Below, piece after piece: positions 10,372-26,309 of a DNA stretch of 64,000 nt. Origin of the DNA: Archangium gephyra (lineage in GTDB: Bacteria > Myxococcota > Myxococcia > Myxococcales > Myxococcaceae); contig NZ_CP011509.1 of the NCBI RefSeq assembly GCF_001027285.1, positions 6,906,501 to 6,970,500 of the forward strand. The letters run 5' to 3'. The notes under the pieces are model-generated. The model searched no databases, had not been told where the DNA came from, and worked only from the letters and a program-made list of their open reading frames with translations. A program made the position numbers and the translations under genes. The first letter of the stretch is position 1; each line of letters begins with the position of its first letter.

Positions 10372-11604
10372 ATGGACATTGGCACCCGGATGACCCTTCA
10401 AGATCGACTGAACGCGCTCACCGGCCTGCTCAGGCCGTGGTCCGAGCTCTGGTCACGTTCCATCCTCCAGAACTGGCCGGAATCCGGAGCCGCTTATCCC
10501 GAATCCTGGCTGTCCTACGCTGAATCACTCGACGAAGAGGGCGAACGGAGGCTGGATGCTGGGGAGCTTCCAGGTGAGCCTCCCCGGCCGCTGCATTCGC
10601 TCGTGCTCGAGCTTCGTGAACTGACGGCGCTGCCCTGGCATGAAGGCGTTCAACGTCTGACGACCGCGGACGCGCAGGGACTCAGCGCCAAGAAGGTCCA
10701 TGAGATCGAGAGGGTCCTCTCCCTGCTCGGGCCGAGGACGAAGGCGATTCGTCAGGCGGTCGATATCGGTGGCGGCATGGGACACCTCGCCCGTCTCTGT
10801 GTCCGGACTTTCGATTGGACCTTCCACAGCATCGATCGCGATGCCGCTTTGCAGGAGAAAGGCCGGGACTGGTTGCGAAGGGCCCGGGCCCTGCCGCGGG
10901 AAAAGCTGTGTTTCATCCACTCCTCCGTCGAAGACGGGCCGCAGGGCGAGCTGGATCCGCTCTTTTCCGGTCAGGACCGGGTCTCGATCGGTCTCCACAC
11001 CTGCGGGTCGCTCGCGCTGACGCAGCTTCGCAAGAGCCAGAAGGCAGGGCTCCTCCTGAACTTTGGCTGCTGCTACGACCAGATGGATGCCGCACGGGAC
11101 TACCCTGTCTCCCGCTGGGGGAAGGCCCATGCGCTTCCCCTCAACCGGCGTGCCCTGTTCCTGGCGACGCGTGGACGGCACCAGAAGACCGAGGCCGAGT
11201 TCGCGCTGATGAAACGCGTCAATGCGCAACGGTTCGCGCTCGGTCTCCTGCTGAGGCGGAAGTTTCCCGCTCTCGGCTTCGTGCGGGCGGGGGATGCACC
11301 CAAGACGCTCTATGCCGGGAGTTTCGCTGTCTATGCGCGTGATCGCCTGGAGCGCCTGCGGCTCGATGCCGGCATGACGGACGCCGAGCTGAATTCCTTC
11401 GAATCGTCCGCTCGTCCCGAGACGAGGCGCCTCTTCCTCTGTCACCTGCTGAGGGATCGCTTCGCGAGGGCGCTGGAGCTCGTGATTCTGCTCGATCGCG
11501 CGCTGCTCCTCGAGGAGCTGGGCTTTCAGGTCGAGCTGCTGCAGGTCTTCGAACCGCGCCTCTCGCCCCGCAACATCGCCCTCATCGCGTCAAGGGCGGA
11601 CTGA
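10372..11604 (+). CDS. METTL25/RRNAD1-like SAM-dependent methyltransferase
   Basis: A 410-aa soluble protein. The SAM-binding motif I is DIGGGMGHLARLCVRTF, followed by an acidic motif (SIDRDAALQEKGR) and the downstream segment LLLNFGCCYDQM. The combination of 'D(I/V)GxGxGHLAR' with '(N)xGCCY' is characteristic of the METTL25/RRNAD1 methyltransferase-domain family (Pfam Methyltransf_32), better known from eukaryotes, whose members act on rRNA or ribosome-associated targets; the substrate here is unknown. The start at 10372 is preceded at some distance by GAGGAGG; the next ATG at 10390 is an alternative. It is divergent from the M23 protein gene, sharing an ~80-bp intergenic region. Confidence 0.75.
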   Translation: MDIGTRMTLQDRLNALTGLLRPWSELWSRSILQNWPESGAAYPESWLSYAESLDEEGERRLDAGELPGEPPRPLHSLVLELRELTALPWHEGVQRLTTADAQGLSAKKVHEIERVLSLLGPRTKAIRQAVDIGGGMGHLARLCVRTFDWTFHSIDRDAALQEKGRDWLRRARALPREKLCFIHSSVEDGPQGELDPLFSGQDRVSIGLHTCGSLALTQLRKSQKAGLLLNFGCCYDQMDAARDYPVSRWGKAHALPLNRRALFLATRGRHQKTEAEFALMKRVNAQRFALGLLLRRKFPALGFVRAGDAPKTLYAGSFAVYARDRLERLRLDAGMTDAELNSFESSARPETRRLFLCHLLRDRFARALELVILLDRALLLEELGFQVELLQVFEPRLSPRNIALIASRAD

Positions 11605-11668
11605 GCCCATCCTCCCTATACTCCTCCGGACACACGGCGGCTGTCGGCCCCCGCTCGCGTGCCCGGCC

Positions 11669-13546
11669 ATGGAAACCCCTCCTTCTCCCCCGCCCCCCGC
11701 CTTTCGCTCCTGGATCCTGGAGCGGCTGGACTCCCTGCTCTCGGAGTCCCTGCGCCAGGGGTCGCCCACGGATCTCGTCCGCTACCGGCTCGTGGTGGGC
11801 ACCGCCTGCTTCTTCATCGTGTTCAACCTGATCTACACGATGGCGGCCGTCTTGTCGGGCCTGCCGCCCTACCCCAGCCTGGCCGCCAGCCTGATCTACG
11901 TCGGCGTCCTGGTGCTCACGCGCCGTTCGGCCACCATCGAGTCACCCACGGCGCTGCTGTTGACGGCCTTGTCGCTCGTGCTCATCGCCGCCGCCTTTGA
12001 TGGCAATGCCCCCTTTGTCAGCACCCACGCCATCTGCACCCTGATCCCCGTCATCGCCGTGTACCTGTCCGGCGCTCGCGTGGGGCTGTTCATCACCCTG
12101 CTGCTGATCGTGCCCCTCTGCGTGGGCTACCCGCTCTACGTCACCTTCGCCCAACCCGCCCCTCTGCCTCCCACCCCCTACCTGATGTGGTTCGGGCACG
12201 TCTTCGCCGGCCTGGCCCTGTTGGGAGCCTGGGGCGTGGGCTCGCTGCACAACGCCGCGCGGGACTCCGCCCAGGGCACGCTCGAGCGGACGATGAAGGC
12301 GCTCCAGCTGAGTGAGAACAAGCTCAGCAACCTCCTGGAGAGCACGGAGGATCCGGTGCTCTCCCTGGACAAGAAGGGCCTGCTGCTGACCGCCAACTCC
12401 GCGGCGAGGCAGCTGCACCTCCAGCGTTTCGGCCATGAGCCCGGGGTGGGCCAGCCCTTCTGGATGGAGCCGGAGCGCCGCCAGCGCTGGGCCCCCCACG
12501 TGGCCAAGGTGCACGCCGGCCAGCGCGAGCGTTTCGAGGACGAGTTCGAGGTGCGGGGCTCCCGCCGCCTCATGGACATCAGCCTCAGCCCCCTGCGGGA
12601 TGGGGACGGAAAGGTCGTGGGGCTGACGGTCTTCGCACGGGACATCACTCCCCGCAGGCAGGCCGAGGCCCGGCTGGGAGAGCTGCACCGGACGCTGCTG
12701 GATGTGTCCCGGCAGGCGGGCATGGCGGAGATCGCCACCGGCGTGCTCCACAACGTGGGCAACACCCTCAACAGCGTGAACGTCTCCACCAGTCTCGTCA
12801 TGGACCGGCTGCGCCTGTCGCGAGTCTCCAGCGTGGGCCGGGCCGCCCAGCTCCTGCACGAGCACACCGGGGATCTGCCCACCTTCTTCACCCGGGATCC
12901 GCGGGGCCAGCAGTTCCCGGCCTTCCTCCAGGCCCTGTCCGAGCAGCTCGAGCAGGAGCGCAACGCCCTGCTCAAGGAGATGCACTCCCTGAGCGAGGGG
13001 GTGGAGCACATCAAGTCCATCGTCAGCATGCAGCAGCGGCATGCGAGCTCCGCGGGCGTGAGGGAGCAGGTGGCCATGCCCGTCCTCATCGACGAGGCGC
13101 TGCGCCTGCACGCCGCGTCCTTCGAGCAGCTGGGCATCCACGTCGAGCGCGACTATGCCCCGGTGCCGCTGCTCTCCGTGGATCGGCACAAGCTGCTACA
13201 GATCCTCGTCAACCTGCTGAGCAACGCGCGCCACGCGTTGATGGACAGCCCGCGGAAGGACAAGCGGCTGAGCATCGGCATCCAGCCGGCGCCGGACGGA
13301 GAGCGGGTGCTCATCGAGGTGAAGGACAACGGCGTGGGCATCGCCCCGGAGAACCTGCCGCGCCTGTTCACGCAGGGCTTCACCACCAAGAGGACGGGCC
13401 ATGGCTTCGGCCTGCACATGAGCGCCCTGGCCGCCGAGGAGTTGCGCGGGCGGCTCACCTGCGACAGCCCCGGCCCCGGCCAGGGCGCTACCTTCACCCT
13501 GGAGCTGCCGCTGGCGGAGGAACCCGGGCCACGGCCAGTGAAATGA
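11669..13546 (+). CDS. membrane PAS sensor histidine kinase
   Basis: A 625-aa kinase with about six membrane segments (residues ~40-200), a PAS domain (~225-340, NLLESTEDPVLSLDKKGLLL ... VFARDITPRRQ), a phosphoacceptor helix pair and a C-terminal HATPase (N box LLSNARHAL, G1 DNGVGIAPENL, F box FTQGFTTK, G2 GHGFGLHMSA). The phosphoacceptor is H361 in GVLHNVGNTLNSV, the variant H-box in which HN replaces the usual HE; this form is common in myxobacterial and planctomycete kinases. The insert of about 100 residues between the two DHp helices is typical of this subclass. No partner regulator is adjacent, so it is an orphan kinase; the signal is unknown. Confidence 0.92.
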   Translation: METPPSPPPPAFRSWILERLDSLLSESLRQGSPTDLVRYRLVVGTACFFIVFNLIYTMAAVLSGLPPYPSLAASLIYVGVLVLTRRSATIESPTALLLTALSLVLIAAAFDGNAPFVSTHAICTLIPVIAVYLSGARVGLFITLLLIVPLCVGYPLYVTFAQPAPLPPTPYLMWFGHVFAGLALLGAWGVGSLHNAARDSAQGTLERTMKALQLSENKLSNLLESTEDPVLSLDKKGLLLTANSAARQLHLQRFGHEPGVGQPFWMEPERRQRWAPHVAKVHAGQRERFEDEFEVRGSRRLMDISLSPLRDGDGKVVGLTVFARDITPRRQAEARLGELHRTLLDVSRQAGMAEIATGVLHNVGNTLNSVNVSTSLVMDRLRLSRVSSVGRAAQLLHEHTGDLPTFFTRDPRGQQFPAFLQALSEQLEQERNALLKEMHSLSEGVEHIKSIVSMQQRHASSAGVREQVAMPVLIDEALRLHAASFEQLGIHVERDYAPVPLLSVDRHKLLQILVNLLSNARHALMDSPRKDKRLSIGIQPAPDGERVLIEVKDNGVGIAPENLPRLFTQGFTTKRTGHGFGLHMSALAAEELRGRLTCDSPGPGQGATFTLELPLAEEPGPRPVK

Positions 13547-13663
13547 GCTCCCTGCATCATCTCAATGACAATCTCGAAAGCGTATGAGGCAATACGTACG
13601 ACGCCCGCCCCACGCATAATGGATTTACCGCCAGACGCCGATGAGGCAGGATGCCGCGCCGTC

Positions 13664-16189
13664 ATGAGAGTCATTCGAGGGGGGAGTCCTATCTTGGAAC
13701 AGTTCCATTTGTCAGGTCGGTGGTTGTGCGCGCTCATGCTGGCGCTCGCGGTGAGTGCCTGCGGAGATAAACCGGTTTCCACCGACACGGTGGCATCCAT
13801 TGTCATCAGCGGGGTGCCGGCAGAGCCCATCCCCCCCAGCCAGACCGTGCAGCTCACGGCGACGCCCAGGGATGCGGCCGGGAACACCGTGAACCAGCCG
13901 GTGAGCTGGAGCTCCAGCAGCCCCGAGGTCGCGGAGGTGAGCGCCGAGGGTCTGGTGAAGGCCGTGCGGTTGGGCAATGTGACGATCTCCGCCACCAGCG
14001 AGCGCCACACCGTCACGGTCGTGGTGCGGGTGGGGGAACGCCCGGCTGCTGGCAACAAGGTGGCTTCCATCCTCATCGGCGGGGTGCCGGCCGAGCTCCC
14101 CCCCACTGAATCCGTGCAGCTCACGGCCACTCCCCGGGACGCGGACGGGAACGCCTTGGCCCGGCCGGTGAGCTGGAGCTCCAGCAATCCCGCGGTCGCG
14201 GAGGTGAGCGCCGAGGGACGGGTGAAGGCCGTGCTGCCGGGCGATGTGACGATCTCCGCCACCAGCGAGAGCCACACCGCCGCGGTCGTGGTGCGGGTGC
14301 GCGAGCGCATGAGCCCTGGCAACAAGGTGGCTTCCATCCTCATCAGCGGGGTGCCGTCCGCGCCCCTCCCCGCCACCGAATCCGTGCAGCTCACGGCCAC
14401 CCCCCGGGGGGCGGACGGGAACGTCCTGGACGTGCCGGTGAGCTGGATCTCCAGCAACCCGGAGATCGCTCAGGTGAGCGCCGAGGGGCGGGTCACGGGC
14501 ATGCAGCCGGGGGAGGTGACGATCGCCGCCACGAGCGAGTGCCACACCGCCACGGTCGTGGTGCGGGTGGGGATCGCACGGGTCGCGTCCGTGACGCTCG
14601 AAGGCGTCCCCTCCGGGCAGGTGAACATCGGCACCACGGTGCAGCTCAAGGCGATACCGCGCAACTCCCTGGGTGATCCCCTTCTCGACCGTGCGGTCAC
14701 CTGGAGCACGAGCGACTGGAACCGGGCGCAGGTGAGTACCACCGGATTGGTGACGGCGAAGCAGTCCGGTACGGTGACCATCACCGCCTCCAGCGAGGGG
14801 AAGAGCGCGTCCGCGACCCTCACCCTCTTCGCCCCCGTCGCCACGGTCACGGTTACGCCCTCCTCCGCGGCGCTCTATGCCACCCAGGAGGTTCAGCTCC
14901 AGGCCGTCCTGCGGGACATCAATGGTGCCGTGCTGACGGGCCGCACGGTCACGTGGACGAGCTCCGACGAGTCCCGCGCGGTGGTCCAGGCGGACGGCAA
15001 GGCCACCGGCGTGGGCGAAGGTGCGGTGACCCTCACCGCCACCAGCGAGGGGAAGTCGGCAGTGGCCAACCTGCGCGTGATCGCGCGGCCGACCCCCTCG
15101 TGGAACCAGACCGCTGAATGGGCGACGTACCAGGGCAACCCCCGGCACACCGGCGCGGTGGAGGCGACGCTGGATCCGCTGGCCTTCCACGAGCTGTGGG
15201 TGAGCCCGGTGGTCACCGGCGGCTCCGGGCTGAACCCGGTCACCGAGGGCGGAGGCGCGGTCTTCGTCTCCAACAACAGCTACTTCGGCGGCCAACAGCT
15301 GACCGTCCTCAATGCGAAGACCGGGGCTCAACTGTGGACGTATGGCTTCGGCGGCATCCACTCGGCCCACCCGGCCGCCTACCACAACGGCACGGTCTAC
15401 CTCACCACGGGTGGCCACGGAGACTCGTTCCTCTACGCCTTCGATGCCGCCGCCGGCACCCTCCGGTTCCGCAGCTCGTACGGCAACCAGTGGTCGCGCT
15501 ACTACGCCCCCGTGGTCATCGGAGACACCGTGTTCATGGCGGGTGGCTACTACGGCGGCATGTATGCCTTCAACGCCACCAGCGGCGAGCAGCGGTGGTT
15601 CCTCGGCACCAACCAGTACGACGAGTGGACGCCCGCGGTGGCCGGCGATCTGGTCTTCGCGTACACCGGTGACTACAGCCCCAAGCTGCAGGTGGTGAAC
15701 GCGGCCACGGGGACGGTGTCCTACGAAATCGCCGACCCCGCCTTCTATTGGAACGGGTGGAGCATGAACCTGGCGCCGGTGCTGGGCGACTCCAAGAACA
15801 TGCTCGCCATCCAGGGCAGCCGGCTGCTCTCCTTCGATCTGGAGAACCGGCGGATTGGATGGACGCGGACGGGCTCGTTCACGGGCAATGTCACGGTCGC
15901 GGACGGCGTGCTGTACGTGTTCAACAACCGGCAGGTGGAGGCACGTGCCGAGGCCGATGGCGCCCTGCTGTGGACCTGGGTGCCGCCGGAGGGCGATCCG
16001 CAGGGGACCATGATCGTGACGGACAACCTGCTCTTCGTCAGTACCGCGTCGAACACGTACGCCGTCGACCTCGGCGCCCGGATGCACCTGTGGAAGTACC
16101 CCGCCGGTGGACGCCTGGCCCTGGGCAAGGACGGGATCCTCTTCATCTCGCAGACCAATGGGAAGCTGGCCGCCATCGCGGTGAAGTGA
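13664..16189 (+). CDS. exported lipoprotein with five Ig-like (Big_2) domains and a PQQ-type beta-propeller
   Basis: The signal sequence WLCALMLALAVSACGD carries a lipobox (VSAC), so the product is an outer-surface or periplasmic lipoprotein. It then has five bacterial Ig-like (Big_2) repeats of ~85-90 residues, each starting VAS(I/V)-x-I-x-GVP and containing a VSWSSSNPxVAxVSAEG-type core, and a C-terminal propeller of ~340 residues with PQQ/WD-like repeats (NAKTGAQLWTYGFGG, NATSGEQRWFLG). Big_2 domains usually serve as rigid cell-surface stalks; the propeller is probably the binding head. The start is uncertain: ATG 13664 is listed, but TTG 13694 has a better-placed GGGGAG ribosome site and gives a tighter signal peptide; the frame is open to 13565. 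Confidence 0.85.
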   Translation: MRVIRGGSPILEQFHLSGRWLCALMLALAVSACGDKPVSTDTVASIVISGVPAEPIPPSQTVQLTATPRDAAGNTVNQPVSWSSSSPEVAEVSAEGLVKAVRLGNVTISATSERHTVTVVVRVGERPAAGNKVASILIGGVPAELPPTESVQLTATPRDADGNALARPVSWSSSNPAVAEVSAEGRVKAVLPGDVTISATSESHTAAVVVRVRERMSPGNKVASILISGVPSAPLPATESVQLTATPRGADGNVLDVPVSWISSNPEIAQVSAEGRVTGMQPGEVTIAATSECHTATVVVRVGIARVASVTLEGVPSGQVNIGTTVQLKAIPRNSLGDPLLDRAVTWSTSDWNRAQVSTTGLVTAKQSGTVTITASSEGKSASATLTLFAPVATVTVTPSSAALYATQEVQLQAVLRDINGAVLTGRTVTWTSSDESRAVVQADGKATGVGEGAVTLTATSEGKSAVANLRVIARPTPSWNQTAEWATYQGNPRHTGAVEATLDPLAFHELWVSPVVTGGSGLNPVTEGGGAVFVSNNSYFGGQQLTVLNAKTGAQLWTYGFGGIHSAHPAAYHNGTVYLTTGGHGDSFLYAFDAAAGTLRFRSSYGNQWSRYYAPVVIGDTVFMAGGYYGGMYAFNATSGEQRWFLGTNQYDEWTPAVAGDLVFAYTGDYSPKLQVVNAATGTVSYEIADPAFYWNGWSMNLAPVLGDSKNMLAIQGSRLLSFDLENRRIGWTRTGSFTGNVTVADGVLYVFNNRQVEARAEADGALLWTWVPPEGDPQGTMIVTDNLLFVSTASNTYAVDLGARMHLWKYPAGGRLALGKDGILFISQTNGKLAAIAVK
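13789..14575 (+). repeat. three ~270-bp intragenic direct repeats (Big_2 domains)
   Basis: The first three Ig-like domains of the lipoprotein are encoded by near-identical blocks with a period of about 270 bp (units starting near 13789, 14059 and 14326), sharing long stretches such as 'gtgcagctcacggc' and 'gtgagctggagctccagca'. The fourth and fifth domains are diverged at the DNA level. The similarity implies recent tandem duplication or gene conversion and makes the region prone to copy-number change or assembly collapse. Confidence 0.85.
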
Positions 16190-16224
16190 GGCGCCACGCA
16201 CCCCAGCAGCCTGGCTTGTTCTCA

Positions 16225-16246
16225 GGGGGGAGCCCCGGCTCCCCCC
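16225..16246. terminator. bidirectional hairpin between convergent genes
   Basis: A perfect 10-bp inverted repeat (GGGGGGAGCC, 2-nt loop, GGCTCCCCCC) lies 36 bp after the stop of the Ig/PQQ lipoprotein and 32 bp after the stop of the convergent lipoprotein gene. There is no T-tract on either side, so it would be a non-canonical terminator. Confidence 0.5.
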
Positions 16247-16277
16247 CGGATGCCGGCCCCCTACACGCGCAGCGTCT

Positions 16278-17276
16278 TCACCAGGCCCCGCAGGAGCGCC
16301 CCAGTGACTCAAGGCCGCTCACCACCTGTTGAGCGACTTCGAGGCTGCTCGTTTCCACGCCCTCGACCTTTGGGATGCTCGTGTCGGCAATGCTGAAGCC
16401 ATATACGACGCCCACGGGGATACCCACGGCCGTCATGTCAATCCATTGCACGTTCGTCAGCAACGTGTGGTCCAGGTGGCTGAGCGAAAGAATGATCGGC
16501 GGGCCACCCTTCGAGATCCCGATGCGGCAGTTCCCGAGGTATTCGAAATGGGCCCCGAACCTGAACTCACGCAGCTCGCGGTCCATGAGCTGCTCAATCC
16601 CCTTCACCACTTCAGCGCGCTGGGCTTCGTGCTCGGGGTGCGGATCCGAGCGCCTGGCCGCGCTCGCCTCCGCTTGAGCTTGTCTTGCGTCGACGGCGGC
16701 CTGGCCGCGAACCGCATGCCCTTGCTGGCGGGCTTGAGCCATCGGCTCGAGCGTGGCCACGAACGCTTCCGCCCTGGCGGTTTCGTAGAAACTCACCTCG
16801 ATGTTTTCGAGGATGACGTACCCGGCGAGAATCGACTGCTCCTTCGTCGTGCACGTCACGGCCTCGGCGCTGCAGCGGTAGCCGCCCTCCTCGCCCCGCT
16901 GCAAGGCATATTCGCGGGCAGCGGCCGCGAACCTGGCCTCGGGCGCGGCCAGAACCTGGCCTCCGTTCTCTTGGCACCAGCGCTGGAACTCCTTGTACAT
17001 GGCGCTCACCGCCTTTTGGCTGTACTCCTCCATGGTGGTGCCTTGGAGGCGGTCGATGAACGAGCGCTGCCAGGGCACGACCCTCACGGTGGTGGTCTGT
17101 CCAAGCGAATGGATTTTGGGTTCAGCCTCGTACCCTAGCGAGTCCACGAAAGCGGCGAACGGCATCTTCTCGTAGGACCGCGGCGGACGGGGCTGAAGGG
17201 TGGCGCAACCGCTGGCCATCACCGCGACCAGCAGGGCCAGAACCCCAGCGAGTGAGGGTGCCCCTGGCGGTCTCAT
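16278..17276 (-). CDS. hypothetical lipoprotein, 332 aa
   Basis: Start chosen at 17276 because it gives an excellent lipoprotein signal: MRPPGAP, hydrophobic core SLAGVLALLVAVMA, lipobox ASGC at residue ~24. An upstream in-frame ATG at 17330 would bury this signal. The mature part is mostly alpha/beta with an Ala/Gln/Arg-rich segment (QARQQGHAVRGQAAVDARQA) suggesting a helical or coiled-coil hinge, and four scattered cysteines. I do not recognise a family. It is followed upstream by another exported protein gene in the same direction (100 bp apart), so the two may be co-transcribed. Confidence 0.7.
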   Translation of the reverse strand: MRPPGAPSLAGVLALLVAVMASGCATLQPRPPRSYEKMPFAAFVDSLGYEAEPKIHSLGQTTTVRVVPWQRSFIDRLQGTTMEEYSQKAVSAMYKEFQRWCQENGGQVLAAPEARFAAAAREYALQRGEEGGYRCSAEAVTCTTKEQSILAGYVILENIEVSFYETARAEAFVATLEPMAQARQQGHAVRGQAAVDARQAQAEASAARRSDPHPEHEAQRAEVVKGIEQLMDRELREFRFGAHFEYLGNCRIGISKGGPPIILSLSHLDHTLLTNVQWIDMTAVGIPVGVVYGFSIADTSIPKVEGVETSSLEVAQQVVSGLESLGRSCGAW

Positions 17277-17377
17277 CACGGGAGATACGTCGGGGAACGG
17301 CGAGACAGGGTGGCGTGGGAGAGAGCTCATGGGGACAGCACTATGCCATACGAAGTGCTTGCTCCCGCCTGCTGCCC

Positions 17378-18121
17378 TCAGCACATGGGCGCGTACACCG
17401 GCCAGATGAGGAGCAGGCCGTTCTCGTCGGAGATGGGCAGCCAGCCCAGCGGCTCCAGGGGCTTGTCCAGGTCGATCATGGCGCCGATCTGCAGGAAGTT
17501 CCCCTGCCTCTGCAGGATGCGCGCGTCCACGAGCTCGCCGTTCCGGCGGAGAGGGTAGTCCCGCGAGACGGGATGGGAGCGGGCGTCCAGCCTCGGCGCC
17601 AGGTAGAGGCGGGACTGCCCCCGGGGCGCCAGGTGGTAGAGCTCCACGCCGCTCCACCGCCACTTCTGCGAGTCGAACGAGAAGAACCCGACGCTGGGGC
17701 CCTTGTCGGCCTCCTCTCCCTCGCGGAGCCAGGCGCGCTTGTTGGTGCGCACGTCCACCACGACGTGGAGGTACTGCCCCCGCTGCTCGACCACCGGGAA
17801 CTTCATCAGCGACTGGCGGTCATAGTCCCAGCCGCTGAGCGGGCCCAACTCCTTCAGGATCAGCTTGCTGTCCGACGCGAACGCCTCACCCTCGGGCCGG
17901 AAGCTCGGGACTTCACCCGTGGGCTGCTGGTCCGGACCGGTCATCGCGCTGATGGAGGCGATGCCGATGACGTTGCGCAGGGCCTCGTCGGAGATCTCCG
18001 CGCGGGACACGAAGATCACCTCGTGCGGCAGGTCGGCGCGGGCCGGGAGGGCGGTGAGCAGCACCAGGAAGCAGAGGACTGAGAGGAACGGGACTCGGCG
18101 GGGATGGGAGGGGTTCATCAT
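17378..18121 (-). CDS. hypothetical exported protein, 247 aa
   Basis: The start at 18121 (MMNPSHPRR) is chosen because it places a standard Sec signal peptide next: positive n-region HPRR, hydrophobic VPFLSVLCFLVLLTALP and an ARA cleavage site before DLPHEV. The frame is open to 18160. The mature protein contains 'NKRAWLREGEEADKG' and 'LARRG'-free beta-rich sequence (WRWSGVELYHLAPRG), resembling a periplasmic SH3-like or beta-barrel fold, but no family is recognised with certainty. It lies upstream of, and in the same direction as, the 332-aa lipoprotein gene. Confidence 0.68.
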   Translation of the reverse strand: MMNPSHPRRVPFLSVLCFLVLLTALPARADLPHEVIFVSRAEISDEALRNVIGIASISAMTGPDQQPTGEVPSFRPEGEAFASDSKLILKELGPLSGWDYDRQSLMKFPVVEQRGQYLHVVVDVRTNKRAWLREGEEADKGPSVGFFSFDSQKWRWSGVELYHLAPRGQSRLYLAPRLDARSHPVSRDYPLRRNGELVDARILQRQGNFLQIGAMIDLDKPLEPLGWLPISDENGLLLIWPVYAPMC

Positions 18122-18205
18122 GCCTGGAGGCACTGCACTCCCCGGGCCACTCTCCGCCACTCACGTAACTGGCGGAGATCATTGCCGTTTTATCGGCACC
18201 GTGGC

Positions 18206-19354
18206 TCAGGAGCCACGCTCCAGCGACGCGAAGCGAGCGAGTGCGAAGCGTGACAGCTCCCAGGGAATGGGGTGGTCCGTGGCCATCCACGCGGCGAGGC
18301 GGCCGAGCAGGACGGTGAACTTGAACCCGTGCCCGCTCAAGCCCCCCACCACCGTCACCCGAGGCTCTCCCGGCAGCCGGTCCACCACGAAGTCCTCGTC
18401 CGGCGTCATCGTGTAGAGACACACCTTCTCGAACACCACGCGCGGCGACAAGCCAGGCAGGTGTTGCGCGCAGGCCTGGCGCAGCGGCTCTCTATCCGCC
18501 TCGTGCACCTCCCGGTCTACCCGGTGGGGCTCCGTGGGCAGGCCCCGCTGATGCAGCGCCACCTTCACGCCGGGCTGCTGTCCGTCGTGGGGAAAGCCAT
18601 AGAAGTCCGTGCCGAAGTCGATCCACACCGGAAAGCGCTCCGCGCTGAAGTCCGCGAGTGGCGCCGAGGGCTCGAAGTGACAGTACACCTGCCGCGTCAC
18701 CGTGAACGGCAGGGAGACGTGTCCCGCCAGCAGCCGGGCCGTCCAGGGCCCCGCGCAGACCACCACCCGATCGAACTCGAGCACCTCGCCTCCCGCGAGC
18801 ACGAGGGCGATGCCTCGCGCCCGGGGCTCGAGGGCCTCCACCCGCGCTCCCGCGCGCACCCGGGCACCGTGCGCCGACGCGAGGCGGAGCTGGGCACGCA
18901 CACACGCGGAGGCCCGGAGGAAACCCGCCTCGGGCTCGAACACTCCCGACTCCCCTGCCCGCAGCCGGAACCCGGGGAATCTCCGAGCGCAGGCGGTGGA
19001 ATCCAGCTCCTCGAAGGGCACCCGGTGCTCTCCAAGTGCCCGGCGGATGGCGGCCAGCTCCGGATGCGCGCTGGGAGCGAAGAACAGGCCCCCCGTGCGC
19101 ACGAAGAGCGACTCCCCCGCCTCGCGCTCCAACGCGTCCCAGAGCGGGTAGGCCTCGCCCATCAGCGCCGTGTAGAGACCATCCGTGTACGTCTTGCGGA
19201 TGATTCGCGAGGTGCCATACGAGCTGCCCTGATCATGGTCGGGCGAGAACTGCTCCACGACGGTGACGGAGTGTCCCTCGTGGGCGAGGAACCGGGCCGT
19301 CGCGCTGCCCACTCCTCCCGCTCCCAGGATCGCGATGCGTGCCATGCCGGCCAT
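18206..19354 (-). CDS. FAD-dependent sarcosine / N-methyl-L-tryptophan oxidase-like enzyme
   Basis: A 382-aa monomeric flavoenzyme of the DAO superfamily. The N-terminal dinucleotide-binding motif is AILGAGGVGSATARFLA. The sequence QGSSYGTSRIIRKTY is the flavin-contact region conserved in monomeric sarcosine oxidase and SolA. The covalent-FAD cysteine is present (~C312) in VCLYTMTPDEDFVVD, and GGLSGHGFKF is the C-terminal FAD motif. Known members oxidatively demethylate N-methyl amino acids, producing formaldehyde and H2O2; the exact substrate here is not predictable. A start at 19345 (MARIAILG) is equally plausible. Divergent from a cytochrome P450 gene with 168 bp between. Confidence 0.88.
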   Translation of the reverse strand: MAGMARIAILGAGGVGSATARFLAHEGHSVTVVEQFSPDHDQGSSYGTSRIIRKTYTDGLYTALMGEAYPLWDALEREAGESLFVRTGGLFFAPSAHPELAAIRRALGEHRVPFEELDSTACARRFPGFRLRAGESGVFEPEAGFLRASACVRAQLRLASAHGARVRAGARVEALEPRARGIALVLAGGEVLEFDRVVVCAGPWTARLLAGHVSLPFTVTRQVYCHFEPSAPLADFSAERFPVWIDFGTDFYGFPHDGQQPGVKVALHQRGLPTEPHRVDREVHEADREPLRQACAQHLPGLSPRVVFEKVCLYTMTPDEDFVVDRLPGEPRVTVVGGLSGHGFKFTVLLGRLAAWMATDHPIPWELSRFALARFASLERGS

Positions 19355-19522
19355 CTAACCGTAGGCGCGCTCGGCCATCCAGCAACCTGACTTACGCCGC
19401 GGGGCGGACAGCTGAGCGGGCGCTCCTTCTTCACCTTCCCCTTCGTCACCGGGCTCCCGTCACAAGCGGATCGCGCGCCTTCCACAAGGACAACGTTTGA
19501 GCCGATTCCTTTGTGAGGACCC

Positions 19523-20743
19523 ATGCCCTCGTCCGCAACGCCCGCGATCCTGACGCCCGAAACCCTGAGCAATCCCTGGCCCGTGTACCGGCAACTGCAG
19601 GAGGATGATCCCGTCCACTGGTCGGAGGAGCTCCAGGCCTGGCTCGTCACCCGCCACGAGGATGTCACCGGGTGTTTCCGCGACCCGCGCCTGAGCGCCA
19701 ACCGCACCCAACTCTTCGCCGAGCACCAACTCGGGGGACTCGGGCCGGAGCTGGTGAAGGACTACCTGCGCGTGGCGGAGGGAATGATGCTCATGAAGGA
19801 CGGCACCGAGCACACCCGCCTGCGCCGGCAGGCCAACACGGGCTTCACCTCGCAGCTGCTCGACGGGTGGCGTCCCACCATCCAGCGCATCATCGACTCG
19901 CTGCTCGACCGCGTCCAGGAGCGGCGGCGGATGGACGTGGCCACGGAGCTCTCCGAGCCCCTGCCCGCGCTCGTGATGACCGAGCTGTTCGACATTCCCG
20001 CCGAGGACCACGAGCGCTTCCAACGGTGGTCCAACGACACCGCCAACTTCTTTGGCGCCGCCGTGGGGGACGTGAGGAGCGCCGCGCTCCGGGCCAATGA
20101 GGGCTCGGCCCAGCTCTCGCGCTACCTGACGGCGGCCATCGAGGCGCGCCGCGAGCGCCCGGGCGAGGATCTGCTCAGCTTGCTGTTGCGCTACGAGGAG
20201 CAGGGCCGGATGAGCACCGAGGAGCTGGTGTCCAACGCCGTCCTCATCCTCACCGCCGGGCACGTCACCACCATCGACCAGCTCAGCAACGGCGTGTACG
20301 AGCTGCTGACGCACCCCGAGCAGCTCGAGCAGCTGAAGCGGCAACCGGAGCTGTGCAAGGCGGCCGTCGAGGAGCTGCTGCGCTACACCCCCGCCGTGCC
20401 CTTCATGCACCGCGTGGTGGCGGAGGACCTCGAGCTGCGCGGGCGCACCCTGCGCAAGGGCCAACTGGTGTTCCTCGGCATCGCCGCCGCCAACCGGGAT
20501 CCGAACGTGTTCGCCGACCCCGGCCGCTTCGACATCACCCGCCAGAACAACAAGTACGTGTCGTTCGCCTTCGGGCCCCACCTGTGCCTCGGCGCCGGGC
20601 TCGCCCGCCGCGAGCTGGAGCTGGCCCTGCGGACCCTGGTGTGCCGCATGCCGGACCTCCGGCTCGACGAGCAGCGGCCGCCGCGCCTCAAGTGCAACAG
20701 CCTGCTGTTCCGGGGGTTCGACTCGCTGCCCGTCCGCTGGTGA
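19523..20743 (+). CDS. cytochrome P450
   Basis: A 406-aa soluble bacterial P450 (heme-thiolate mono-oxygenase). The ExxR motif (EELLRY), the PERF-like region and the heme loop FAFGPHLCLGAG with axial ligand C355 are all present. The I-helix reads LTAGHVTTIDQ: the acidic residue usually found in the AGx(E/D)T oxygen-activation motif is replaced by valine, while the threonine is kept. The substrate is unknown, and no ferredoxin or reductase gene is adjacent, so redox partners must come from elsewhere. A GAGGA ribosome site precedes the ATG. The divergent neighbour is a flavin N-demethylase-type oxidase, but a shared pathway is only a guess. Confidence 0.93.
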   Translation: MPSSATPAILTPETLSNPWPVYRQLQEDDPVHWSEELQAWLVTRHEDVTGCFRDPRLSANRTQLFAEHQLGGLGPELVKDYLRVAEGMMLMKDGTEHTRLRRQANTGFTSQLLDGWRPTIQRIIDSLLDRVQERRRMDVATELSEPLPALVMTELFDIPAEDHERFQRWSNDTANFFGAAVGDVRSAALRANEGSAQLSRYLTAAIEARRERPGEDLLSLLLRYEEQGRMSTEELVSNAVLILTAGHVTTIDQLSNGVYELLTHPEQLEQLKRQPELCKAAVEELLRYTPAVPFMHRVVAEDLELRGRTLRKGQLVFLGIAAANRDPNVFADPGRFDITRQNNKYVSFAFGPHLCLGAGLARRELELALRTLVCRMPDLRLDEQRPPRLKCNSLLFRGFDSLPVRW

Positions 20744-20752
20744 GCTGTCCAT

Positions 20753-20784
20753 CCCCGGCGGGTTCGAATCCCGCCGGGGACACC
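20753..20784 (+). other. orphan tRNA 3'-end-like element (T-arm plus acceptor strand)
   Basis: Ten bases after the P450 stop is CCCCGGCGGG-TTCGAAT-CCCGCCGGGG followed by ACACC. It reads as a tRNA T-arm (5-bp stem GCGGG/CCCGC, 7-nt loop TTCGAAT) followed by a 7-nt acceptor 3' strand, discriminator A and CC. The acceptor strand CGGGGAC resembles that of tRNA-Glu. No D-arm, anticodon arm or 5' acceptor strand precedes it; the upstream bases are P450 coding sequence. It could be a relic attachment site of a tRNA-targeting element, or simply a strong hairpin terminator. Confidence 0.6.
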
Positions 20785-20873
20785 GGGAGGAGGGAGCGAG
20801 CAAGCCGAGAGCCCTCCGGGGAGGGCGCTCTGTTACGGTGCGTGCTTCCCGCGGCGCACCCGGAGTCCTCACC

Positions 20874-21488
20874 TTGACACAAGCCCTCGCCACCATCTTC
20901 CTCGTGGACGACGATGAGTCCGTGCTGCGGGGGCTGGGGCGGCTGCTGCGGGCCGCCGGCCATGCCACGAAGCCCTTCGCTTCGCCCTCCGAGTTCCTCG
21001 CGCAACTGTCCGGGGACACGCCGGGCTGCGCCGTGCTGGACCTGCGGATGCCGGAGCTGAACGGGCTGGAGCTGCAGCAGGCCATGGAGTCCAGGAACTG
21101 CCACCTGCCTGTCATCTTCATCTCCGGCCACGGGGATGTGCCGGCCAGCGTCAGGGCCATGAAGGCCGGCGCCGTGGACTTCCTCCTGAAGCCCTTTGAT
21201 GAGCAACAACTGCTGGGAGCCATCTCCCAGGCCTTGCTCAAGGACGCGGCGGCCCGTACCGGCCGCGCCGAGACAGCCGCGCTGCAGGCCCGTCATGCCG
21301 TCCTCACGCCCCGCGAGCGCGAGGTCTGCGCGCTGGTGGCCCAGGGGATGACCAACCGGGAGGTCGCCCAGCGGCTGGGCACCACCGAGAAGACCATCAA
21401 GGTGCACCGCGCCCGCGTCATCCAGAAGCTGGACGTGGACTCGGTGGCGGAGTTGGTGCGGTTCGTGGATCGGCTGGGCCAGGGCTGA
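20874..21488 (+). CDS. two-component response regulator, FixJ/NarL type (receiver + LuxR HTH)
   Basis: A 204-aa protein starting at TTG 20874, chosen because GGAG lies 8 nt upstream and the receiver begins immediately after (TIFLVDDDESV). The receiver has the acidic pair D12/D13, phosphoacceptor D56 in VLDLRMPELNG, and LLKPFD with the conserved lysine. A C-terminal LuxR-type HTH follows (LTPREREVCALVAQGMTNRE ... TTEKTIKVHRARV). FixJ-family regulators activate transcription when phosphorylated. No kinase is adjacent, so its partner is unknown; the nearest kinase in the window is ~7 kb upstream. Confidence 0.93.
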   Translation: MTQALATIFLVDDDESVLRGLGRLLRAAGHATKPFASPSEFLAQLSGDTPGCAVLDLRMPELNGLELQQAMESRNCHLPVIFISGHGDVPASVRAMKAGAVDFLLKPFDEQQLLGAISQALLKDAAARTGRAETAALQARHAVLTPREREVCALVAQGMTNREVAQRLGTTEKTIKVHRARVIQKLDVDSVAELVRFVDRLGQG

Positions 21489-21551
21489 GCCCGCGCGGTG
21501 TAAGCACAAGGGCCAATATCCACTTCCCGACATTTCAGGTAGAGAGCGGGG

Positions 21552-21587
21552 CGCACGCTGGCTGTCTCCAGCGGAACCCAGCGTGCG
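21552..21587. other. long-stem hairpin in the intergenic region
   Basis: A perfect 10-bp inverted repeat (CGCACGCTGG at 21552-21561 and CCAGCGTGCG at 21578-21587) with a 16-nt loop lies between the response regulator and the YWTD lipoprotein gene. There is no T-tract. It may end the upstream transcript or fold in the leader of the downstream one. Confidence 0.45.
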
Positions 21588-21738
21588 TCACGGGGTGCCT
21601 GGCGACCGCTCGAACCCGGGCGGCGGCGCCATGTTCGGGCACGACCTCGCCCCACCCTGGAGCCATCTGCCACGCCATCGGAGAACCTGGCGTTCCGCGT
21701 TTCCAACGCCCATGCCGGGCGTATCACGAGGAGAGTTC

Positions 21739-23187
21739 ATGTCTTGTTTGCTTTCGAAGTGGCTCGCGGCGCCAGCCACCGCGGTGCGCGCCGGACTGGT
21801 GCTTGGACTGGCCATCAGCACCCTCGCCGCTTGTAACGGCAGAGGACCGCCGGCCCACGGAGGGCCGGTGGCCCAGGACGGCACCCTCGAGACGGCGGAA
21901 GACACGCCCCTCGAGGTGCACCTGCCGGCCAGCCACAACGAGGCACTCACCTTCAGTATCGTCGACGCGCCGGACCACGGCACGCTGAGTGAGCTCAGCG
22001 CCGATGGCTTCGTCACCTACACCCCCGGCGCCGACTACAACGGCGAAGATGCCCTCACCTTCCGCGCCACCAACCGCAAGGGCCAAAGCGCCCAGGCCAC
22101 GGTGACCCTCACCATCACGCCGGTGAACGACACGCCCACCCTTTCCCCGGTGGCCAACCAGAGCATCACCGCTGGCGGCTCCACCGGAGACCTGGCCTTC
22201 ACCGTGGGCGACGTGGAGACCGCCGCGGACAGCCTCACGGTCACCGCCACTTCCTCCAATACCGGCCTGGTGCCCAACAACCCCAGCCATCTCGTCCTCG
22301 GCGGCTCCGGCTCCAGCCGCACCCTCAACGTCGTCCCCGCCGCCAGCACCAGCGGCTCCACCACCATCACCCTCTCCGTGAGTGACGGCTCCGCCACCAC
22401 CTCCACCACCTTCACGGTCGACGTCACCGGTGTCGCGAGCCTCTACTGGATGACTGCCCCCGGCTCGCTGTGGAGGGTTGACGTGAACGGCACGAATGCC
22501 ATTGAGCTCAAGACCGACATCAGCGGGGCCTCTTCCGTCGCCACCGACCCGGTCACCCGTACCGTCTTCTACTCCCAAGACAGCGCCATCGTTCGCGTGG
22601 ACAGTGATGGGGCGAACCCGGTCGATATCGTGGCGAACGGAGGCTACCCCTCCGGGCTGGCGGTCGATTCGACGAACCGCAAGCTGTACTGGTCCGATTT
22701 CACCGGACAACAGATCATGCGCGCCGAGCTGGACGGCAGCAATCCAACGCAGGTCGTCGGCGGCATCGATAGCCCGTCTGCCCTCGCGCTCGATATCCCG
22801 AACGGCAAGGTGTATGTCATCACCTACAACAACACCAGTCTCGTACGCTTCAATCTCGATGGGACCAACCTGGAGACCCTCGCTTCAAAACTGGGCGGCC
22901 TGGGCGTGGGCCTGGCGGTCGACTCGAGCGGCGGGAAGGTGTACTACGCGACCCGCGGCAACAGTATCTATGTCGCCAACCTGGACGGCTCCAACGTCAC
23001 CCCCCTGGTGATCAACCAGACCACAGTGTACGGGATTGCCATCGACGTCACGGCCGGGCGGCTGTATTGGACGGATTGGCTGGCTGGAGTGCTTCGGAGC
23101 GCCAATCTGGCCGACGGCAGCGATAGCCAGAACGTGAACTCGGGCAGCAGCAGGAACTTCGGTCTGGCCTGGATGCCCGCGCCGTAG
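21739..23187 (+). CDS. exported lipoprotein with cadherin-like/Ig domains and YWTD beta-propeller
   Basis: A 482-aa lipoprotein; the start at 21739 has a GAGGAGAG ribosome site and opens a signal peptide with lipobox LAAC. Two Ig-like/cadherin-type domains follow (DGLVTYTP-like DGFVTYTPGADYNGEDALTF, then VANQSITAGGSTGDLAFTVG). The C-terminal half is a six-bladed propeller of LDL-receptor class B (YWTD) type, with SLYWMTAPG, KLYWSDFTGQQIMRAELDG and RLYWTDWLAG repeats of ~43 residues. Proteins of this kind are adhesins or ligand-binding surface proteins; the ligand is unknown. The upstream frame to 21583 is not used because it lacks a signal. Confidence 0.88.
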   Translation: MSCLLSKWLAAPATAVRAGLVLGLAISTLAACNGRGPPAHGGPVAQDGTLETAEDTPLEVHLPASHNEALTFSIVDAPDHGTLSELSADGFVTYTPGADYNGEDALTFRATNRKGQSAQATVTLTITPVNDTPTLSPVANQSITAGGSTGDLAFTVGDVETAADSLTVTATSSNTGLVPNNPSHLVLGGSGSSRTLNVVPAASTSGSTTITLSVSDGSATTSTTFTVDVTGVASLYWMTAPGSLWRVDVNGTNAIELKTDISGASSVATDPVTRTVFYSQDSAIVRVDSDGANPVDIVANGGYPSGLAVDSTNRKLYWSDFTGQQIMRAELDGSNPTQVVGGIDSPSALALDIPNGKVYVITYNNTSLVRFNLDGTNLETLASKLGGLGVGLAVDSSGGKVYYATRGNSIYVANLDGSNVTPLVINQTTVYGIAIDVTAGRLYWTDWLAGVLRSANLADGSDSQNVNSGSSRNFGLAWMPAP

Positions 23188-23212
23188 CCAGGCTGCGAAG
23201 AGCAAGTGGGGC

Positions 23213-24337
23213 CTATTCGTCCCGCAGGGCCGAGGCGAGGTCTGCCCAGAGCTCCTCGACGTTCTCGATTCCGACGCTCAATCGGAGGAGTGAGGGGGGC
23301 AGGTGCTCCTGGCCGGGGATGCCCGCACGGCGCTCAATCGTCGACTCGACGGCCCCCAAGCTGGTGGCGTGATGTATGAGCCTGACCCGCGAACACACCG
23401 CGTCGGCCGCCGCGGCGTCGCCGCGAACGTCGAACGAGATGATGGTGCCGAAGCCTTTCAGCTGAGCGCGCGCGACCGGGTGTGTCGGGTGGCTGCTCAG
23501 TCCCGGGTACCGGGTCAGGGCGACACGAGGATGTGCCTGCAGGCGCTCCGCGAGCACCATGGCGTTGGCCTGGGCTCGCTCGAGCCTGAGCGCCATCGTG
23601 CGTGCGCCACGCACCGCGAGGTATGACTCGAGTGCTCCGGGCGTGGCTCCGTTCAACTCACGCGAGCGCCGCAGGGCTGCCCGGAGGTCGTCACGCCTCA
23701 CGGTGACCACCCCCGAGAGGAGGTCCGAGTGCCCCCCGATGAACTTGGTTGCCGATTGGAAGGAGACGTCAGCGCCCAGGTCGAGCGGCCTCTGATTCAG
23801 GGAGGTCGCGAACGTATTGTCGACCGCCACGAGGGCCGTTGGCTTTCGGGCGGCCGAACAGATGGCGCGCACATCGGCCACGGCCAGCAGCGGATTCGAC
23901 GGAGACTCCAGCCAGAGGAGGTCCGCGTCCGCGCAGGCCCGTATCCACCCTTCCGTATCGTCGACCGCCAGTCTGCGGAGACTCCAGAAGCCCTTTTGCC
24001 TCCCGGACTCAGCGAGCCCAGCCACGCCCTGATAGCAATCGTCCGGGAGAACGATCTGAGACCCGGCGCGCAGTTGGTCGAAGACCGCGGCGACGCCGGC
24101 CATGCCCGAGGCGAACGCGACGGTATGACCTCCTTCCAAGAGCCCGACTATCTCCTCGAGCGCTTCCCACGTGGGCGTGCCGTCGTCTCGTGCGTAGGCG
24201 CGCTCGGTACCGAGGACGAAATTCGAGGCTGGAACGGGCGGCCGGTTCAGCGGCGCCCCAGGGCGCCGGTCGCGTCCCGCCGCGACGAGCAGTGATTCGG
24301 CTGACGAGAGCTCCGCGAGAGGTAGGTCCGTGCTCAT
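23213..24337 (-). CDS. Cys/Met-metabolism PLP-dependent enzyme (cystathionine gamma-synthase/lyase family)
   Basis: A 374-aa fold-type I PLP enzyme. The PLP lysine is in SFQSATKFIGGHSDLLSG, the family signature; YARDDGTPTWEALE corresponds to the phosphate-binding Y..R segment of the partner subunit, and ASGMAGVAAV contains the PLP-phosphate loop. Members catalyse gamma- or beta-elimination/replacement on homoserine esters, cystathionine or methionine; the reaction cannot be chosen by eye. Start at 24337 (MSTDLPLAE) is selected because the upstream 29 codons would overlap the divergent gene's promoter area. Convergent with the YWTD protein (25 bp apart). Confidence 0.88.
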   Translation of the reverse strand: MSTDLPLAELSSAESLLVAAGRDRRPGAPLNRPPVPASNFVLGTERAYARDDGTPTWEALEEIVGLLEGGHTVAFASGMAGVAAVFDQLRAGSQIVLPDDCYQGVAGLAESGRQKGFWSLRRLAVDDTEGWIRACADADLLWLESPSNPLLAVADVRAICSAARKPTALVAVDNTFATSLNQRPLDLGADVSFQSATKFIGGHSDLLSGVVTVRRDDLRAALRRSRELNGATPGALESYLAVRGARTMALRLERAQANAMVLAERLQAHPRVALTRYPGLSSHPTHPVARAQLKGFGTIISFDVRGDAAAADAVCSRVRLIHHATSLGAVESTIERRAGIPGQEHLPPSLLRLSVGIENVEELWADLASALRDE

Positions 24338-24418
24338 GCTCACGAACCTATACCGAGGTCGCCAGGCAATGCAGTAACCCGAGTGAATTCCGAGCGCGTC
24401 CGCGACGTCACGGTCCGT

Positions 24419-26236
24419 ATGCATCCTACAATTCTCAGCGTGCGAACGTGCATCGCGGCTCTCGTCCTTCTCTGGTCACAGCTCGCGGTTGCCGGCGGAC
24501 TCCGATTCGCCGCCGAGTTTCCGGAGCTACCGAACGCCAACGCGAGGAAGCTGAGCGCGCAGCGCTTCGTCCTCGTCAGCGTCGAGTGGCGCCCTGACAC
24601 CGGCAAGACGAGGATGCCGTACTACCAGTTCTTCGACTTCAAGGAGCGCAAGGCCGTCGAGGTGCCGCTGCCGTTGCACGAGTTCCCCCAGGCGCACCTC
24701 CAGGTGCTCGGGACACGGACCCCCCCGATGGCGCACGTCGTCCACTTCGACGGGCAGGTCTTCTCGCTCACCCTCAACGCCTCGAAGAACCACGAAGCGA
24801 GCGCGACCTACTTCTGCCAGTACGACACACGCACGAACCGGTTCTCCGAGCTCGTGTACCTCAGCCCGTGGGACGACACGCGCCACATCGAAGACATCGG
24901 CTTCGATTCCACCGACGAGTACTTCTACTTCGCGATCGGCGCGAATCCGGCCGGCAACGTGATCAAGAACGGCTACACCTCGCTCGAGCTGAACCGCATC
25001 CATCTGCGAAATCGCGAGCTCGACTGGAAGATGAAGGTCGACCTGCCGAAGCGCGCCAGGCCGCTCAAGCTGAACTCGGGCCCGCAGCTCTTCAGCCGTG
25101 ACGGCACGAAGCTCGCGCTCGTCGAGTACAACGACGCCGGCATCCAGCGCGACGACAAGCCGAACCCTCCGGAGCAGGTGCTCGTCGTCGACATCCCTTC
25201 GAAGACGGTGGACGCGTATCCCTCGTTGCTCACCGCGTACGGCCAGGTGTTCTCGCCAGACAACCGCTACCTCATCCTCGGCTCGAATGAGCTCGGGCGG
25301 ATGATCCGGATCGATCTCGAGAAGAAGAAGCTCGATCTCGAGGGGCCGGGCCACAAGAGGGTCGACCGCTACCTCCCCACGCCGTCCGGGAAGAGCTTTC
25401 TCGTGTTCTCGAACACGAAGCTCACCTCGCCCAAGACCGTCGAGGTGCGACGCGTCTCCGACTTGAAGCTCCAGACCTCGATTCCGGTGCGGATGGTCTT
25501 TCCCGGAACGGATGCAGTCGTGCCGTCCGGCATCTTCTCCGGGCTCGACGGGCGGATGTTGCTGATTCCGTACGTCGACAAGAAGGGTTGGTCAGACCGC
25601 AAGGGGTGGCGGCTCTACGAGGTTCCGGACGACGTGACGTCGCCGGAAGTCGACGGCGGCTCGGGCGGCGACATGAAGGTCGCGCAGGGCGTGGTCCTCG
25701 GGAAGCAGTACGCCGACGCGAACCACCTCCTCTATGAAGACCGGAAAGAGGATCCGAACGCGAGCTTCTCGCAGTTCGTCGTCAACAAGACCGGCGACAT
25801 CTTCCTCATCGGCACGCTGAGCGACAACTCGGACGACGACTACAAGGTCGGCCGCACGCGTCCCGTCGTCGCGAAACTCGGTCCGGACGGCAGGCCGAAG
25901 TGGCAGCGCATCCTCGTGAAGAAGGGCTTCCTCGACTACGAAGGCGGCCAGGTCGCGGCCTTGCCCGACGGCGGCTGCGTGGCGGACGTCGTCTCGTACG
26001 TCCACCCGGGCAGTCACCCGGTCACACGCGTGGTGAGACTCGACGCCCAGGGCAAGGTCCTCTGGGACTACCACTTCGGCGGCGGCCGCCCGCGCATCGG
26101 CGATCGCTACGAGCTCCTGCCTGATCTCTCCATCTCGATCACCGGCCGCCTGTACGAGGGCGGGGAGAAGTACCGCCCCTGGAAGGCCCTCCTGGACAAG
26201 AACGGCAAAGTGCTCTCCGACGAAGTCGCGCCGTAG
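24419..26236 (+). CDS. exported beta-propeller-like protein, 605 aa
   Basis: The ATG at 24419 starts a good signal peptide (MHPTILSVRTCIAALVLLWS, cleavage after AVAGG or nearby); an in-frame GTG at 24383 is possible but less likely. The mature protein is beta-rich with repeated segments that read like propeller blades (FSRDGTKLALVEYND, FSPDNRYLILGSNELGRM, NKTGDIFLIGTLSDNSDDD, LGPDGRPKWQRILVKKG, LDAQGKVLWDYHFGGG). Function unknown; probably periplasmic or secreted. Base composition is slightly lower in GC and codon use (many tcg/ctcg) differs mildly from neighbours. Divergent from the PLP enzyme with an 81-bp intergenic region. Confidence 0.75.
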   Translation: MHPTILSVRTCIAALVLLWSQLAVAGGLRFAAEFPELPNANARKLSAQRFVLVSVEWRPDTGKTRMPYYQFFDFKERKAVEVPLPLHEFPQAHLQVLGTRTPPMAHVVHFDGQVFSLTLNASKNHEASATYFCQYDTRTNRFSELVYLSPWDDTRHIEDIGFDSTDEYFYFAIGANPAGNVIKNGYTSLELNRIHLRNRELDWKMKVDLPKRARPLKLNSGPQLFSRDGTKLALVEYNDAGIQRDDKPNPPEQVLVVDIPSKTVDAYPSLLTAYGQVFSPDNRYLILGSNELGRMIRIDLEKKKLDLEGPGHKRVDRYLPTPSGKSFLVFSNTKLTSPKTVEVRRVSDLKLQTSIPVRMVFPGTDAVVPSGIFSGLDGRMLLIPYVDKKGWSDRKGWRLYEVPDDVTSPEVDGGSGGDMKVAQGVVLGKQYADANHLLYEDRKEDPNASFSQFVVNKTGDIFLIGTLSDNSDDDYKVGRTRPVVAKLGPDGRPKWQRILVKKGFLDYEGGQVAALPDGGCVADVVSYVHPGSHPVTRVVRLDAQGKVLWDYHFGGGRPRIGDRYELLPDLSISITGRLYEGGEKYRPWKALLDKNGKVLSDEVAP

Positions 26237-26309
26237 GGATGGCCTCCGTTGGGGACATTCACTCCGGGTGTCAGGGCGGGGCTCGACGTCATGCCAGACG
26301 TCCGGTACG

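Follow-up and report, generated by a model that had tools for sequence, protein, structure and literature searches.

A tRNA-Glu-like T-arm palindrome where a cytochrome P450 gene meets a sensor-kinase remnant in Archangium: probably a decayed attachment core of tyrosine-recombinase elements

The window, by which we mean the whole 64-kb stretch (64,000 nucleotides) of the Archangium gephyra genome that was analysed, contains a cytochrome P450 gene followed by a perfect hairpin, by the remnant 3' end of a sensor histidine-kinase gene and by the gene of a LuxR-type response regulator. The hairpin starts 8 nt past the P450 stop codon and includes the T-arm and 3' end of a tRNA. The features are given in window coordinates, the palindrome being based on sequence, fold and a palindrome scan:

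19523-20743, + strand: cytochrome P450 gene (Pfam PF00067)
20744-20753, + strand: ten bases, GCTGTCCATC, matching the relatives' sensor-kinase gene just upstream of the part missing here
20752-20780, + strand: perfect palindrome and proposed attachment core, with 11-bp arms at 20752-20762 and 20770-20780
20753-20784, + strand: T-arm, acceptor 3' strand, discriminator and CC of a tRNA
20758-20762: T-stem, positions 49-53 in tRNA numbering, GCGGG
20763-20769: T-loop of 7 nt, TTCGAAT
20770-20774: tRNA positions 61-65, CCCGC
20775-20781: acceptor strand, CGGGGAC
20782: discriminator A
20783-20784: CC
20800-20877, + strand: remnant 3' end of the sensor histidine-kinase gene
20838-21488, + strand: LuxR-type response regulator, partner of the lost kinase

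An earlier, sequence-only reading had described the element as the 3' third of a tRNA with no 5' half, which our searches bear out: ARAGORN reported no intact tRNA and no complete cloverleaf at 20753-20784, and an Rfam scan of the entire window at gathering thresholds gave zero matches. The copy is a T-arm with the acceptor 3' strand and no tRNA around it, but its palindrome makes it more than half a tRNA. Elsewhere in the window ARAGORN called a tRNA-Ser(gct) at 49644-49733 on the minus strand, which has no Rfam tRNA match at the gathering threshold, is missing from the genome-wide tRNA list and is probably a false call. The 5' side of the hairpin is not random sequence, as TCCCCG (20752-20757) pairs with CGGGGA and adds six pairs, so that the stem comprises 11 perfect base pairs compared to the 5-bp T-stem of a tRNA. 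The 61-nt stretch around the hairpin folds with a z-score of -2.54, and only 1 of 200 shuffled sequences was as stable.

The same reading had proposed a search for the 31-bp string in an intact tRNA gene; the exact string is absent from the intact tRNAs of the window genome (G000). The closest of these is tRNA-Glu(TTC) (G000:C1:7999720-7999792), identical at 24 of 25 bases over the shared part, the single difference being a G-C pair in the window copy where tRNA-Glu has A-T. The 11-mer GGTTCGAATCC occurs 37 times in G000, many of the occurrences being tRNA genes, compared to none for the reversed control; the palindromic 21-mer class occurs 14 times, its control again zero times. Within the window itself one occurrence of the 11-mer was found at up to one mismatch where 0.76 are expected by chance, which is unremarkable, so it is the longer exact palindrome together with the genome-wide counts that raises the window signal above chance. 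Copies outside tRNA genes include one in the same orientation 22.1 kb to the left of the window copy (G000:C1:6905115), one at 7884672 and others, some of which extend up to about 100 bp into the sequence 3' of tRNA-Glu, terminator included. The terminator hairpin of tRNA-Glu is also dispersed alone, without a T-arm core (e.g., G003:C303:25777 and G000:C1:7101622).

The class of palindromes was defined by the pattern CGRCGGGTTCGAWTCCCGYCG, which does not match the tRNA-Glu gene itself, and its reverse served as control. Across G000 and five other Archangium genomes (G001-G005) it has 88 sites, namely 14, 13, 24, 14, 5 and 18 in G000 to G005, respectively, and the control has none. At least one class site is present in 16 of 58 genomes of the family and in 5 of its 26 genera; the genus of the window genome includes Archangium violaceum and A. 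lansinium. A palindrome scan of loci likewise gave no control hits, where the control was one Markov simulation and the loci had been preselected for holding cores. The cores come in two flavours, one resembling tRNA-Glu (TTCGAAT, then ..CGGGGACA) and one resembling tmRNA (TTCGATT, then ..CCGCCTCCAC); in the tmRNA-like cores the right half is identical to the 3' end of the tmRNA gene at G000:C1:9810104-9810468. Apart from its G-C pair, the window core belongs with the tRNA-Glu-like ones. A strict 27-mer, with both forms of this pair allowed, matched five stretches among 84,980 species genomes, three in A. lansinium MIWBW, one in A. violaceum Cb vi76 and one in Pyxidicoccus caerfyrddinensis; none of the five has the G-C form of the window core, in a collection from which the window genome's own records may have been left out. 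A recurring right flank (..gcccgccgccttgagtcgaacccac) follows many tmRNA-flavour cores that have no integrase gene, e.g., G000:C1:9948937 and G005:C1:2459109.

Integrase remnants beside the cores were first noticed in G001 and G005. At 14 of the 88 sites the C-terminus of a tyrosine recombinase lies 32-89 bp to the right of the core, always facing it, while none of the 88 has such a gene to the left; at the other 74 none was found within 3 kb, and the same search of 364 kb of other stretches gave zero matches. The integrase relatives have about 400-427 amino acids; two were scanned, both with a match to Pfam Phage_integrase. Viewed from the integrase side, 18 of 30 loci carry the T-arm motif when up to 6 mismatches are allowed, and among the 12 without it are several with distant integrases or short remnants. 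Relatives of the integrase are also encoded at 14 loci of viral contigs, five of which have a T-arm at the 3' end of the integrase gene; in two cases this T-arm is part of an intact tRNA-Leu gene. Among phage records the best-ranked matches are only about 29% identical. Taken with the counts from the integrase side, the T-arms in viral contigs show that this integrase family integrates in T-arms of the tRNA type, and the palindromes that lie outside RNA genes are a variant of these. The gene calls behind the integrase loci, the elements, the stop-codon counts and the gene-end comparison given below come from a simple custom ORF picker.

Comparison of the flanks of all pairs among 89 sites (the 88 and one in genome G018) revealed homology on the left side only in 10 pairs, on the right side only in 30 and on both sides in none; the count required flanks of at least 300 bp and matches of at least that length adjoining the core, and it set aside short repeats next to the core in 80 left and 77 right pairs. 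Eight loci account for the 10 left-only pairs; three of these pairs are from mmdA, and one of the three has 84 bp in common on the right too. Many of the 30 right-only pairs are copies of the ends of integrase-bearing elements, and these pairs do not count as independent. For comparison, in a region collinear between G000 and G003 both sides are kept at 19 of 27 conserved gene ends; one of the 27 is at the border of this region and another precedes the neighbouring core. At G000:C1:6905115 the left flank is 95% identical to G003 and the match stops at the last bases of the core. After mmdA (this name and ahcY were assigned by eye) the left flank and the core are common to four genomes and the right sides differ; beyond the mmdA elements, over 20-50 kb, no downstream flank is common to all four, and pieces are shared by G005 and G002 only. 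Among the other family genomes with mmdA, none of 25 has the palindrome after its stop codon.

Several elements still lie between cores. In G001 a phage-like element of 15.3 kb begins at the ahcY stop codon, continues with a core, a full-length integrase gene and the gene of a phage capsid protein, and ends at another core. A 4.8-kb element after mmdA in the same genome (L144:10337-15130), also between two cores, contains genes of low GC3 and a broken integrase, and its cargo, a Cap4-type nuclease protein and a weakly SMC-like ATPase, is defence-like. A third element of G001, 10.6 kb long, occupies the intact tRNA-Glu gene itself (L143:6690-17293); a direct repeat that starts at the anticodon and spans about 43 bp goes with it, and Pfam gave no match for the integrase-like protein that it encodes (L143:6741-8018). 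Because the tie to the integrase is one-sided and homology breaks at the core, the palindromes constitute an attachment-core (att) family of tyrosine-recombinase elements, which resembles the T-arms of tRNA-Glu and tmRNA and lies outside RNA genes. That the palindromes are instead REP-like or miniature self-moving elements found near integrases only incidentally is very unlikely. Their dispersal, often after genes, and the copies of the tRNA-Glu terminator hairpin apart from any core would agree with such elements, but a small insert should keep both flanks homologous at orthologous sites, which no pair does, and the integrase gene lies on one side only and faces the core. Filled and empty orthologues, which were compared at mmdA only, included no sites differing by the palindrome alone.

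At the window locus itself, the P450 gene is 94.6% identical to a gene elsewhere in G001 that has no hairpin after it, and the blastn similarity stops at 20745, 6 bp to the left of the palindrome. This similarity (19515-20745) covers the gene and a bit of its promoter and is sharp at both ends, as if the gene had moved alone. On the other side, homology to the sensor kinase restarts at 20800, 19 bp to the right of the palindrome rather than at its edge, and the relatives are 94-96% identical over 20800-21522. In G001, G002, G003 and G005 the kinase gene is intact (an intact reading frame being listed in one of these four) and is followed by the response regulator with no hairpin; a relative's kinase has HisKA and HATPase_c domains. 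The junction of P450 and kinase is absent from the relatives. A second copy of the sensor kinase in the window genome (L103, G000:C1:3478497-3480046) is 84% identical to the relatives' kinase and precedes a seemingly degenerate response regulator, which is the converse of the window locus with its intact regulator and lost kinase. As for the ten bases GCTGTCCATC, a match of equal length arose in 0.018 of simulations (first-order Markov sequences rather than exact shuffles), and they may just possibly be the left piece of the kinase remnant, which would place the core inside the remnant. Integration straight into the kinase with only the 7-bp overlap changed was considered and does not fit, since 46 nt separate the matching pieces here and 35 nt in the relatives.

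The position just past a stop codon also admits a hairpin that is the native 3'-end structure of the P450 gene, either a terminator or an RNA stabiliser, with its likeness to a T-arm due to convergence. This reading gains from the strong stem and from the 34 of 89 class sites at which a stop on the same strand is predicted no more than 60 nt upstream, but it is quite unlikely, given that the hairpin has no T-run and no terminator-like match, that neither the G001 homologue of the P450 gene nor the mmdA genes of the 25 other genomes are followed by a hairpin, and that a terminator needs neither the T-loop consensus nor the tRNA-Glu-like tail GGGGACAC. The scan for a stem-loop followed by a T-run covered 20600-21000 and yielded none, and the structure is absent in relatives. 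The sequence-only reading had named a conserved terminator in relatives as evidence against a scar, and no such terminator is seen, the relatives being free of the hairpin at either flank.

Its proposal of an accessory block bounded by two copies fared less evenly. A direct copy does exist 22.1 kb to the left, though the DNA between the copies is partly collinear with G003: contig C35 of that genome follows window positions 10388-13548, the intervals from -1353 to 10388 and from 13548 to 26254 are replaced there, and the whole is a patchwork. A single bounded 22-kb island between the direct copies is thus ruled out. The P450 gene could also be cargo rather than a neighbour, in which case the core would be a former terminus, right or left, of the element carrying this gene. 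The gene-limited P450 homology with sharp ends on both sides, the cargo held between cores in integrase-bearing elements elsewhere and the two intervals replaced in G003 all speak for this, but there is no further core between G000:C1:6905115 and the window copy and the interval holds the DNA collinear with G003, which leaves the cargo reading unlikely. As the sequence-only reading had remarked for the window, no integrase is nearby: none of this family was found in the window or in the 60 kb to its left. Nor did the flank test yield a partner site sharing a flank with the window copy.

We consider the best reading of the window hairpin to be a decayed attachment core of a tyrosine recombinase, of the tRNA-Glu flavour, at a probability of about 0.7. 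The suggestion of a scar of an integrative element made from the sequence alone thereby stands for the class, whose cores behave as attachment cores, and is the best reading yet unproven for this copy, where the specific checks were mixed. In the mechanism that we propose, phage-like and smaller integrative elements of the genus would carry a tyrosine recombinase with the attachment site just past the stop codon of its gene, and this site would be a copy of the T-arm and 3' end of either tRNA-Glu or tmRNA. Its two arms may serve the recombinase as an inverted-repeat binding site, with strand exchange within the 7-bp T-loop, the latter being suggested by the symmetry of the arms and by work on mycobacteriophage Ms6 (PMC1762012). 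The elements would have inserted at many sites away from RNA genes, frequently right behind the stop codon of a protein gene, and every insertion would have left a core that has new DNA on one of its sides. The core in the window would mark where the P450 gene was joined to the histidine-kinase remnant, the element itself being gone. From its form, place and junction we infer that the window copy arose in the same way as the other cores of the class, of which it would be a worn member.

The ends of tRNA genes are classic docking sites of mobile DNA, usually one or a few per genome. Integron attC sites are palindromic as well, lie after genes in short arrays of direct copies, and have boxes (GTTRRRY and RYYYAAC) whose folded bottom strand is used by IntI. 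The present cores share with them the palindromic form, the place after genes and the short direct-copy arrays, whereas the GTTCGAA of the core does not, by eye, fit the GTTRRRY consensus, and the integrase gene lies beside the core and faces it at the 14 sites described above. Genomic islands of the Islander class use tyrosine integrases in tRNA and tmRNA genes, displaced fragments marking the ends of the elements (PMC4383910). The elements studied here resemble them in their tyrosine integrases and in the use of tRNA and tmRNA 3' ends as sites, the 10.6-kb tRNA-Glu element of G001 being a classic case; they differ in that each genome has 5-24 cores, which are symmetric palindromes and for the most part are not in RNA genes. 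Ms6 is described as using tRNA-Ala genes, with strand exchange placed in the 7-base T-loop (PMC1762012), and the core shares with this and other T-loop integrases the T-arm and 3' end, while here the ends of protein genes are used repeatedly instead of tRNA-Ala. Fragments of tRNA genes (attR) are partial 3' ends left by the integration of mobile elements (PMC9897764); the window fragment differs from these in that its left arm has been rebuilt to full complementarity and that there is no intact tRNA as its partner across a single element. The literature covered, in part, contains tRNA and tmRNA islands and T-loop phages and, in those parts, no dispersed T-arm palindromes, which may nevertheless be in print. 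While tRNA fragments left by integration are well known, the present cores are unusual in how many there are, in being symmetric and in lying outside RNA genes.

A farther-reading possibility, which we hold to be speculative and rather improbable, is a chromosome-wide network of multi-site recombination in which dozens of symmetric T-arm cores located outside RNA genes would be joined in trans by the recombinases of resident elements, swapping one side of conserved gene ends (mmdA, ahcY and a gene of a molybdopterin-type dehydrogenase) and moving single genes like that of the P450, similar to an integron but built on a tRNA arm. Taken together, a docking sequence has left RNA genes, has turned symmetric and occupies 5-24 places per genome, and gene order changes there wherever relatives can be compared. 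The cores are a readable set of hot spots of gene turnover in large myxobacterial genomes, they point to a candidate recombinase family with many natural sites, and the core in the window marks the joining of a P450 gene to a broken two-component operon.
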